From the NCBI GenBank assembly GCA_020429235.1, contig JAGQLQ010000001.1:1-64000 (forward strand): a DNA stretch of 64,000 nucleotides. Direction: 5' to 3'. The position numbers were made by a program, and so were the translations under genes. The notes beneath the pieces were generated by a model. The model searched no databases. It was given only the letters and a program-made list of their open reading frames with translations, and was not told the DNA's origin. This stretch comes from Candidatus Peregrinibacteria bacterium. GTDB lineage: Bacteria > Patescibacteriota > Gracilibacteria > UBA1369. Shown in pieces: positions 34,452 to 53,870 of this stretch (position 1 is its first letter; each line of letters begins with the position of its first letter).

Positions 34452-35066
34452 ATGAAATTCTACCTCTCTTCCTACAAAATTGGTGACGATCCACAGCAGC
34501 TCAAAAACCTGCTGCCCAAAAATTGCAAAGCAGTGTACATATCCAACGCACTCGACTTTGCAAAACCGGAAAGTCAAAAAAAGCATGAGGATTGGGATCT
34601 TCGTGAACTGAAAGCGATTGGCATTGATGCTAAACCACTCGACCTCCGCGACTATTTTGGCAAAAAGGATGATCTTTCATCAAAGCTGCAAGATATTGAT
34701 CTCTTTTACATTAGCGGTGGCAATGTTTTTGATCTCCGCCTCGCCATGAACTTAAGTGGGTTCGATGAAATCCTCCAGTCCCTCCTTTCAACCAAAAAAA
34801 TCTACGCTGGCTATAGCACTGCCGTTTGCGTTCTTTTGCCAACCCTCAAAGGGTATCACATCGTCGATGAACCAAACCTGAAAACCTATGGTGAGCACGA
34901 GACCATTTGGGACGGACTTGGCATAATCAACTGGATGTTCGCACCTCATTTCGAATCCGATCACAGCGAATCAGCTGACATTAATAAAGAAATTGCCTAC
35001 TACCAAAAACACGGCATGAAGTACAAAGCGGTGAGAGATGGAGAGGTGATCATCCTTAAACAGTAA
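34452..35066 (+). CDS. S51-family peptidase-like protein (dipeptidase E-like)
   Basis: A 204-residue class I glutamine amidotransferase-like fold protein of peptidase family S51. The FYISGGNVFDLRLAM segment and the nucleophile elbow GYSTAVCVL (Ser in place of GxSAG) are visible, followed by an APHFESDHSES stretch around the catalytic His. S51 enzymes cleave Asp-X dipeptides or cyanophycin products. It is short for the family, and the elbow GYSTA deviates from the canonical GxSAG, so the activity is uncertain. It follows phosphoketolase by 10 bp. Its end overlaps the convergent S51 paralogue by 11 bp. Confidence 0.75.
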   Translation: MKFYLSSYKIGDDPQQLKNLLPKNCKAVYISNALDFAKPESQKKHEDWDLRELKAIGIDAKPLDLRDYFGKKDDLSSKLQDIDLFYISGGNVFDLRLAMNLSGFDEILQSLLSTKKIYAGYSTAVCVLLPTLKGYHIVDEPNLKTYGEHETIWDGLGIINWMFAPHFESDHSESADINKEIAYYQKHGMKYKAVRDGEVIILKQ

Positions 35067-35820
35067 CCAACAACTCTTTCACAGAAATTCCACTTCGAAT
35101 TGGATCTTCAATGAATGCTCCTTTCTTAAAGTAGGTTTTATACGCTCTAACTTCTTTCAAATCCTTCACAACATCCACTTTATTTCCAATAAAAGCCAGT
35201 GCACACATGTCTGGTACAGACAAAGCAAAGCCACTATGGCGCTTCAAAATATGCTTCATGCCAAAACTACGATGATCCTTATCCCAATTTCCACTTTGAT
35301 GGTGCGGATTATTTAAAGCAGGAATAAAACCCAAACCAGACACACGAATATAATCATTGCGATCAGGATTTTTAAACTGCCGACTATCGCTGACACCATA
35401 GTCAAACCAACAAATCGATCCAGCACTCACCCCACACATTACCTTTCCAGACTGATAAGCCTTTTTCAACGATTTATCAACTCCCAATCTTCTCCACAGA
35501 TTCATCATCTTCAATGTATTCCCACCACCAACATAAATGATATCAGCCCAGGCAATCTTTTCTTGAAACGATTTTTTTGATTGATCATCTGAATATAAAA
35601 GCAGACTTTGCACATCACATCCAAAGCCTTTCTCAAAAGTTTCATTGATCTTTGATATATAAACAGATGAATCATCAGTCGCCGTTGGCACAAACAAAAA
35701 ATTCGGTTTTGGCCTGCCAGAAAGCTCGATCAACTTTTCATTAATTTCTTTTATATCAGCAGGATTATCCTTCGGACCATATCCGCCGATTGCTACAATT
35801 TTCTTTTGAAGGTTTTTCAT
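35056..35820 (-). CDS. S51-family peptidase (dipeptidase E-like)
   Basis: A 254-residue S51 peptidase-fold protein. It has FLFVPTATDDSS, the IIYVGGGNTLKMMNLW segment and a canonical nucleophile elbow GVSAGSICWF (Ser), then GLGFIPALNNPHHQSG with the likely catalytic His. Length and motifs fit a peptidase E-like exopeptidase for short Asp/Glu peptides. It faces its diverged paralogue (34452-35066) tail to tail with an 11-bp overlap. The start is ATG 35820. Confidence 0.85.
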   Translation of the reverse strand: MKNLQKKIVAIGGYGPKDNPADIKEINEKLIELSGRPKPNFLFVPTATDDSSVYISKINETFEKGFGCDVQSLLLYSDDQSKKSFQEKIAWADIIYVGGGNTLKMMNLWRRLGVDKSLKKAYQSGKVMCGVSAGSICWFDYGVSDSRQFKNPDRNDYIRVSGLGFIPALNNPHHQSGNWDKDHRSFGMKHILKRHSGFALSVPDMCALAFIGNKVDVVKDLKEVRAYKTYFKKGAFIEDPIRSGISVKELLVTV

Positions 35821-35896
35821 AAGATTATCGTACAGAAATGAAAAAAATTATCTACAGATAATCTCTGCCCCTTATTATAAAAAAGCTGACCATGGT

Positions 35897-35966
35897 GGGG
35901 GCAGCGGGCGCCACCCAGGACTTGTCAATCCATGGGTGAGGAGTTCGACTCTCCTTGCCTCCACCA
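35897..35966 (+). ncRNA. tRNA-like element without a D arm
   Basis: A 70-nt element with a 7-bp acceptor GGGGGCA (35897-35903)/TGCCTCC (35956-35962), discriminator A and CCA (35964-35966). It has a perfect T arm: AGGAG, loop TTCGACT, CTCCT (35939-35955). In place of D and anticodon arms there is one long hairpin, CACCCA-GGA, loop CTTGTCAA, TCC-(A bulge)-TGGGTG (35912-35938). The T arm and 3' end resemble those of tmRNA, but no tag-coding part is present. The acceptor can extend to 11 bp by pairing the CCA with upstream TGG (35893-35895). It is not a normal tRNA. Confidence 0.6.
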
Positions 35967-35984
35967 CTGGTTAGCGGCTATAAT
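35955..35984 (+). promoter_or_regulatory. Promoter inside the tRNA-like 3' end
   Basis: TTGCCT (35955-35960, part of the tRNA-like acceptor), 18 bp, TATAAT (35979-35984). The expected start, near 35991, is exactly the first base of the segment complementary to the tRNA-like hairpin. Confidence 0.6.
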
Positions 35985-35990
35985 AAAGAA

Positions 35991-36043
35991 GACAAGTCCT
36001 GGGTGCCTACTGCAAAAACCTCGCCTTCACCGGCGAGGTTTTT
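35991..36043 (+). ncRNA. Predicted ~53-nt small RNA antisense to the tRNA-like hairpin
   Basis: Starts after the promoter at 35955-35984 and ends in a perfect terminator. Its first 15 nt, GACAAGTCCTGGGTG (35991-36005), are fully complementary to CACCCAGGACTTGTC (35912-35926), the 5' half and loop of the tRNA-like hairpin. The pairing can form within one long transcript or between two RNAs, and would break the tRNA-like hairpin. Confidence 0.5.
36015..36043. terminator. Intrinsic terminator, works in both directions
   Basis: AACCTCGCC (36017-36025), 6-nt loop, GGCGAGGTT (36032-36040), flanked by five A before and TTT after. It ends the small RNA on the plus strand and can also end the tktN-lepB-tktC transcript on the minus strand. 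Confidence 0.88.
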
Positions 36044-36064: not shown

Positions 36065-36185
36065 CAACCAAATAAAGGCGACAGATCCAAGGCGGAGGAA
36101 AATTTTGATCCGCAGCGTATTCAAAAATACGTGAGGAATCAAAATCTTTCCGACAACGCAGGAGCTGGCCCTTTATTTGGTTGCG
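36065..36185. repeat. Nested inverted-repeat element (121 bp)
   Basis: Outer arms GCAACCAAATAAAGG (36065-36079) and CCTTTATTTGGTTGC (36171-36185) are a perfect 15-bp inverted repeat. Inside, GGAAAATTTTGAT (36098-36110) pairs with ATCAAAAT-C-TTTCC (36139-36152, one bulge). Innermost, CGTATT (36117-36122) pairs with AATACG (36127-36132) around CAAA. The right outer arm contains the tktC stop codon. It could be a structured 3' UTR, a small REP/MITE-like element or a folded RNA. No second copy is seen in the window. Confidence 0.7.
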
Positions 36186-37114
36186 CTTTCAATCTTCTCC
36201 GCAATGCCAACACCGTCGAGTCCATACTTCCGATAAACATCATCCACCTTCCCCGACTCCGCAAACCCATCCATCCCCAACCGCAAAACTTTCATCGGAT
36301 AGTGCGTCGCCAATGTTTCACAAACAGCAGAACCCAAACCACCAATAATCTGATGATCCTCCACTGTCACAACATGGTTCACAGCCTTCGCACACTCCAC
36401 AACCAAATCCTCATCAAAAGGCGCAATCGAAGACATATTCACAACCATCACCGACTTCCCTTTCCGCTCCAGAATTTCCGCAGCATCTAAAGCTGTATGC
36501 ATAGTGGTTCCGATCGCAAAAATGCACACATCCGTCCCCGACTTATAAATATTCCCTTTCCCAAAAACAAACTTGTGCTCTTTGTCGTACAGATTTGGCA
36601 AAGGCAAATGCATCAAACGCAAATACGTTGGTCCATAATCGAGCATCATCATCTCCACAGCCTTCTTCGCCTCTTCAGCATCAGCAGGACAGACCACCTT
36701 CATTCCCGGAATCGATCGCATAAGCGAGATATCTTCCAGGGGTTGATGTGTCGCCCCTTCCTGACTATTCAAAATTCCAGTATGAATCCCCACAATTTTC
36801 ACATTCAAAGGTGTCGCGCTCAAATAGTTCCGGATCGAATCCCACCCTCGTCCAGTCACACTAATTCCATATCCACACAAAAAAGGGATCTTCCCGCGAA
36901 CAACAAATCCGCTCGCCGCCGCAATCATCGCCCGCAAACTATTCCCAAACGGGAAATGCCGATCCGGATGCTCTTTGTCGAACGTTGCCAATCCCAGCGG
37001 CGCCGCCACATTCGCACTCAAAATTACAAAATTCTTATACTTCCCACCCAGCTTCACCAATGACTCAGTAAAAGCTTTCTCGGTTGAAATCTGTTTTTCA
37101 GGATTAAATCGCAT
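36173..37114 (-). CDS. Transketolase, C-terminal subunit
   Basis: A 313-residue protein equal to the pyrimidine-binding and C-terminal domains of transketolase. It begins with the EKAFTESLVKLGGKYKNFVILSANVAAPLG region (catalytic Glu side), has FPFGNSLRAMIAAASGFVVRGKIPFLCGYG and GATHQPLEDISLMRSIPGM, and ends with the C-domain (YKSGTDVCIFAIGTTMHTALDAAEIL). It needs the N-terminal half at 38014-38895 to form the ThDP enzyme, which moves two-carbon units between pentose phosphates and hexoses. Unusually, a signal peptidase gene is wedged between the two halves. Its stop codon lies in the nested inverted repeat. Confidence 0.93.
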   Translation of the reverse strand: MRFNPEKQISTEKAFTESLVKLGGKYKNFVILSANVAAPLGLATFDKEHPDRHFPFGNSLRAMIAAASGFVVRGKIPFLCGYGISVTGRGWDSIRNYLSATPLNVKIVGIHTGILNSQEGATHQPLEDISLMRSIPGMKVVCPADAEEAKKAVEMMMLDYGPTYLRLMHLPLPNLYDKEHKFVFGKGNIYKSGTDVCIFAIGTTMHTALDAAEILERKGKSVMVVNMSSIAPFDEDLVVECAKAVNHVVTVEDHQIIGGLGSAVCETLATHYPMKVLRLGMDGFAESGKVDDVYRKYGLDGVGIAEKIESATK

Positions 37115-53783: not shown

Positions 53784-53870
53784 TTTGTTTGGTTAAGAAA
53801 TGCCTTTCGCGCAAAAGCACCCTCAACCTAACAACTCCACATTATCTCCAGATAAAGTTTTCTTAAAAAG

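Follow-up and report, generated by a model that had tools for sequence, protein, structure and literature searches.

We found that a tRNA-like RNA of 70 nt, here called the TLD, lies beside a putative gene for a small antisense RNA at positions 35897-36043 of the window (the whole stretch of 64,000 nucleotides that was analysed). The pair belongs to what is apparently a large and undescribed RNA family. We propose, with a probability of about 0.55, that the TLD is an alanylatable tRNA-like effector, able to slow growth or interfere with translation and silenced by its own antisense RNA, in the manner of an RNA-only toxin-antitoxin system. No earlier description of such a pair was found in Rfam or in the part of the literature searched, which agrees with an earlier sequence-only reading of this DNA that knew of no described locus of the kind. 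The features assigned in the window are as follows.

35056-35820, minus strand: left neighbouring gene, which we take, from recognition and cross-matches, to be peptidase E family-like
35847-35878, plus strand: probable TLD promoter, motif TTATCTACAGATAATCTC and the -10 hexamer TATTAT (35873-35878), assigned from recurrence of the motif
35897-35966, plus strand: tRNA-like RNA (TLD), 70 nt, CCA encoded; 89.9 bits with covariance model R1, whose seed includes this locus
35897-35903, plus strand: 5' strand of the acceptor, GGGGGCA, forming 7 bp with TGCCTCC at 35956-35962; G3 is 35899 and U70 is 35960
35904-35911, plus strand: minimal D arm GC-GGGC-GC, 2 bp, loop GGGC with the conserved GG; both pairs present in 11 of 11 seed sequences
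35912-35938, plus strand: long hairpin replacing the anticodon arm, 9 bp and a bulge, loop CTTGTCAA; supported by covariation, predicted target of the antisense RNA
35939-35955, plus strand: T arm, 5 bp, loop TTCGACT; the TTC and the A of the loop are invariant in 71 of 71 aligned TLDs
35955-35984, plus strand: predicted promoter of the antisense RNA, TTGCCT (35955-35960), 18 nt, TATAAT (35979-35984); hexamers 10/12, overlapping the 3' end of the TLD
35964-35966, plus strand: CCA end
35991-36043, plus strand: predicted antisense small RNA, about 53 nt, 5' end placed from the promoter
36014-36043, plus strand: intrinsic terminator AAAAACCTCGCC-TTCACC-GGCGAGGTTTTT, from folding and reading by eye
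36173-37114, minus strand: right neighbouring gene, presumably transketolase-part-like (recognition and cross-matches)

The T arm, acceptor and CCA end that the sequence-only reading had described were all found in place. It had denied the element a D arm; on this point it was mistaken, since the 2-bp arm is kept throughout the seed. The TLD of the window has a predicted fold energy of -31.3 kcal/mol. Among the 11 seed sequences all nine hairpin pairs had changed on both sides (9/9), and the covariation of the whole fold was 0.393, compared with 0.141 after shuffling. Neither ARAGORN nor Rfam called a gene at the window TLD, the canonical tRNA cloverleaf (RF00005) included, and ARAGORN called no such cloverleaf at the homologues scanned. 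The TLD is not a canonical tRNA. Nor is it a tmRNA, since 70 nt leave no space for a message domain with its tag reading frame. The tmRNA model (RF00023, cut-off 47) gave 24.4 bits for the TLD of the window and 47.1 for one homologue (L077), and the same genome holds a full, ordinary tmRNA (C1:10335-10754, tag ANNTNEGENATVAKLRALFAAAPVAA). We considered a split or permuted tmRNA and rejected it, because of this full tmRNA, the self-contained acceptor of the TLD and a score of 12.3 bits with the permuted tmRNA model.

Downstream of the TLD, the TTGCCT-18-TATAAT promoter reported earlier was confirmed, and homologues carry the same two hexamers at a spacing of 17-18 nt. The first 15 nt of the predicted small RNA (35991-36005) are a perfect complement of 35912-35926, which comprises the loop and the 5' strand of the TLD hairpin, as the sequence-only reading had noted; this complement begins 7 nt past the -10 hexamer. 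In addition, CTGC at 36010-36013 is complementary to GCAG in the 5' part of the TLD. The predicted duplex of the two RNAs (-44.1 kcal/mol, to which the C-rich strand of the terminator contributes) is stronger than the TLD's own fold. The terminator named earlier was recognized by eye and by folding, whereas the automatic scan gave no call there. Apart from its complementarity, promoter and terminator, the small RNA showed no further feature. A tag-like reading frame in it was rejected, as inspection of several homologues by eye showed none that is conserved.

The genome from which the window comes is 1.23 Mb in size and contains further copies. BLAST against this genome and its relatives detected a second TLD at C36:16014-16117, with different sequences and the same layout, and a third copy is located at C57:94484. 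Searched with model R1, built from 11 loci, genomes throughout the order Candidatus Peregrinibacteria yielded several divergent copies each. With the iterated model R2 we detected TLDs (E 1e-8 or better) in no fewer than 44 of the order's 89 genomes, in other families of the class and in ten genomes elsewhere in the phylum Patescibacteria; lower-scoring matches, some of them true tRNAs, were left out, and the genomes compared are mostly metagenome bins. A minimal search outside the phylum gave three matches in Acidimicrobiia, with no evident antisense RNA. In these (L035:7848-7918, L037:3655-3725 and L040:5510-5580), tRNA-like units built in a similar way, GGGGGCAGCCGGG...CTTGCCTCCACCA, are repeated in tandem, and their loops resemble anticodon loops. 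One contig titled Nitrospirota (L038, JAUVQE010000005.1) carries a window-type module whose TLD matches that of G066. Since G066 belongs to this Patescibacteria order, the contig appears to come from a mislabelled bin. At L013:230-330 we observed a second promoter and an antisense-like RNA of altered sequence after the first; the TLD of that locus lies at a contig break (G003 C65/C139), and the arrangement suggests variation within the population.

Pair G3:U70, the classical signal of alanyl-tRNA synthetase (AlaRS), was present in 71 of 71 aligned TLDs and in 97 of 97 of a larger set. A73 was found in 71 of 71, the two C of CCA in 70 and 68 of 71, and the T loop was nearly invariant. The TLDs hence carry the identity elements of tRNA-Ala, namely G3:U70, A73 and the CCA end. 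Acceptor pairs 4-7, unlike G3:U70, vary among the TLDs. In the 11 seeds of R1, pairs 5, 6 and 7 were as invariant as pair 3, yet they were free to vary in the matches; the search itself is therefore an unlikely cause of the invariant pair 3. On these grounds we infer that the TLD could be alanylated by AlaRS.

Complementarity between the TLD and its own flank recurs throughout the family. A perfect complement of at least 9 nt within 160 nt was observed for 93 of 108 TLDs, compared with 5.8% by chance, and one of at least 12 nt for 63 of 108, compared with 0.15%; the chance rates come from TLDs paired with the flanks of other loci, the best of four orientations was counted, and the counts treat the loci as independent, a few of the 108 being close orthologues. 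About 15 of the 108 had no clear perfect complement, and some of these are probably degenerate or imperfectly paired. The antisense stretch lies downstream on the same strand, as in the window, for 25 TLDs (orientation A); downstream on the opposite strand, convergent and meeting the TLD at a terminator, for 49 (B); upstream and divergent for 15 (C); and upstream on the same strand for 4 (D). Since it is found in four orientations, the antisense function appears to persist while its position changes. We also observed a -10-like hexamer (TATAAT-like) 7-20 nt ahead of the start of the complement, on the antisense strand, in 81 cases, while about 3 were expected. These hexamers played no part in locating the complements. 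Their distance to the antisense start peaks sharply at 11-13 nt, as expected for transcripts that start with the first complementary base.

The pairing is also specific. In genomes with several loci, the best predicted duplex of 49 out of 50 antisense RNAs was with their own TLD (mean -39.3 compared with -22.9 kcal/mol), in a test that is partly biased, as each antisense stretch had been located through its own match. In an unbiased comparison, which used whole flanks and downstream sites only, 53 of 71 TLDs matched their own flank better than any other, with 24 expected. Paralogous TLDs of one genome keep private antisense sequences, and the complementarity of the pairs co-varies between loci. 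The antisense RNA covers the loop and the 5' strand of the hairpin, and at many loci it extends to the D arm. Five loci in three families stand beside two genes that we take, by recognition of their sequences, to be miaA and recJ; their TLDs have diverged, the antisense RNA beside each of them matches it, and the order of the three genes differs. These comparisons strongly support two RNAs predicted to pair in trans. They also bear out the earlier suggestion that relatives of a real pair would show the same arrangement with co-varying complementarity, as seen in the 93 of 108 TLDs and the 53 of 71. In the downstream flanks of four loci (L081, L085, L119 and L083) we noted matches to the acceptor/CCA end or the 5' end of the TLD, not to the hairpin; these stretches are possibly antisense RNAs aimed elsewhere on the TLD.

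We analyzed the sequences upstream of the TLDs as well. In the window's genome, a motif of the TTATCTACAGATAATCTC type also precedes the third TLD, and TTTATCTGGAGATAATGTG at 53838-53859 of the window is a TLD-type promoter motif before a minus-strand gene with an LTD and a cohesin domain. In family f14 the TLDs are preceded by TTTAAGAAAATTTAATGTTTG and a -10-like hexamer. This motif occurs at 8-30 sites per genome, compared with 1-3 for the reversed pattern, and it also precedes recA, dprA, comM/yifB, comF and ssb, together with LTD-domain, KilA-N, RelB-, HicB-, MazE- and PIN-type genes. The regulon-like occurrence was seen at L212, L218, L230 and other loci of G036 and G025. In G049 and G063 a related direct repeat stands before both recA and the TLDs, and recA in the window's genome has no clear TLD motif in its promoter. 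Judged from these motifs, membership of the TLDs in a regulon of the recombination or DNA-uptake type is well supported in some families, and for the window's genome the motifs are suggestive of it. A competence-regulated toxin-antitoxin pair is known from Haemophilus (PMC6957337). In another family, f31 (L141, L142, L143, L144, L147 and L148), the palindrome GTGTACGATCGTAC lies just upstream of the TLDs and also upstream of an argS-like gene. LexA-type control was considered for this family and rejected, since the palindrome also precedes argS and no SOS gene was seen with it.

The loci are multi-copy and intergenic and stand in varied gene contexts; they lie in chromosomes, and different families share some of the neighbourhoods. 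In most of the loci examined there was no shared mobile or partner gene, and a mobile element or a partner protein was rejected on this basis. We found no viral carriers of the window-type pattern. The commonest neighbour cluster encodes a zinc-ribbon-like protein (8 loci). The genes for this cysteine-rich protein (about 500-580 aa), often in tandem, lie on one or both sides of the TLDs at L005, L076, L079, L093, L115, L130, L143 and L159, an adjacency that may be chance.

From the sequences we infer that both RNAs are transcribed and that the small RNA inhibits the TLD. As the conserved features reside in the TLD, and its partner keeps only complementarity, promoter and terminator, the TLD probably acts as the effector, silenced by the small RNA. 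The TLD retains what AlaRS and the tRNA elbow need, namely G3:U70, A73, CCA, the T loop and the GG of the D loop. It has no usable anticodon arm, and it resembles the tRNA-like domain of tmRNA minus the message. Once alanylated, it could meet AlaRS, EF-Tu or SmpB, and it could not decode. Because the duplex is predicted to be stronger than the TLD fold and covers the loop, the 5' strand and often the D arm, pairing should destroy the tRNA-like fold and would thereby prevent charging and use. A constitutive antisense RNA would hold the TLD off until the TLD's own regulated promoter, which in some families is common to recA and competence-type genes, turns on and releases it. The persistence of the antisense gene across four arrangements points to a cost of leaving the TLD unsilenced, which would lead to the toxin-antidote reading. 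Since the loci are chromosomal and some of their neighbourhoods recur, selfishness of the addiction type is not evident.

The main rival explanation is antisense control of a useful, non-toxic RNA, and it fits nearly as well. Here the TLD would carry alanine as a modulator of tmRNA/SmpB rescue or as a non-ribosomal alanine donor, and the antisense RNA would set its level or timing. The same anatomy is expected, and the chromosomal position, the neighbourhoods that recur in some cases and the match of the TLDs to the tmRNA model (24.4 bits in the window; 47.1 for L077, cut-off 47) all suit it. However, a cognate antisense that is near-universal and occurs in every orientation is more than ordinary tuning needs, and the private antisense sequences kept by paralogues speak against it too. 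We regard this explanation as possible, though on the unlikely side. It is improbable that the small RNA regulates other targets and the TLD serves as its sponge. Complementarity and specificity would be expected of a sponge as well, but a sponge has no need of G3:U70, A73, CCA and the T loop, all conserved in the TLD, and the small RNA has no features besides its complementarity, promoter and terminator.

The sequence-only reading had left two options, a pair of RNAs or one transcript switching between two folds, and the former was upheld. A window-type transcript of 150 nt could be folded either way. As a general rule, however, the switch fails, since most homologues encode the antisense RNA on the opposite strand, an arrangement (convergent in 49 loci, divergent in 15) that is incompatible with it, and a promoter stands ahead of the antisense part. 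We therefore give a single read-through transcript very little credence. Even less remains for the idea that the TLD is a tRNA in decay or a mobile element's DNA repeat. Copy number, intergenic position and varied gene contexts would agree with such an origin, but the compensatory changes in the fold, the invariant G3:U70, the cognate complementarity and the lack of a common mobile gene nearby oppose it. A decayed tRNA with random flanks, which the earlier reading had named among the refuting outcomes, is contradicted by the conserved fold, the G3:U70 pair and the partner RNA.

More broadly, we tentatively suggest, while holding it rather doubtful, that the pairs may form an RNA-only toxin-antidote class across the Patescibacteria, in which a charged, codon-blind mimic of alanine tRNA would block translation or ribosome rescue, be kept silent by a private antisense RNA and be released in the response to DNA uptake or recombination. 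The TLD family as such would add a new class of RNA to a vast bacterial phylum that can hardly be cultivated, and the comparative support for it is strong, given the conserved alanine identity and the specific cognate antisense RNAs found in every orientation. It would point either to a toxin-antidote system made of RNA alone, with a tRNA mimic as its basis, or to alanylated RNA serving a new purpose other than decoding, ribosome rescue being one example.

Several known systems resemble the pair in part. The tRNA-like domain of tmRNA (RF00023) shares with the TLD the alanine-type acceptor with G3:U70, the T arm, a reduced D arm and a long helix where the anticodon arm would be. Unlike tmRNA, the TLD is 70 nt long, has no message domain or tag, is multi-copy and has an antisense partner. 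The tisB/istR system is a stress-induced type I pair that combines a regulated effector promoter with a constitutive antisense RNA; its effector is a peptide mRNA, whereas that of the TLD pair is an RNA. SdsR is not tRNA-like, unlike the TLD. As proposed for the TLD pair, in SdsR/RyeA (type VIII, PMC6610125) an antisense small RNA keeps a small effector RNA in check. SdsR and RyeA are mutually cis-encoded, while the pairing region of the TLD is a separate repeat in four orientations. CreTA (PMC8501985) is similar in that a small toxic RNA acts on the tRNA and translation economy and is silenced by a partner RNA. However, CreT has a mini-ORF that sequesters rare tRNAs and the TLD effector is itself tRNA-like; CreA acts via a CRISPR effector at transcription and the partner of the TLD would pair RNA to RNA. 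By this predicted direct pairing the module looks unlike CreTA, and no CRISPR feature caught the eye near the locus. Allo-tRNAs and irregular tRNA arrays are likewise odd tRNA-like genes, some with G3:U70, which the parts of the source used here (PMC7609411) give as the alanyl-tRNA synthetase signal. The same parts speculate on a link to toxin-antitoxin systems or transposons, and do not mention an antisense partner, which the TLDs have. Those are tRNAs of the 8/4 or 9/3 type, whereas the TLD is 7/5, lacks a variable loop and has a D arm of minimal size.
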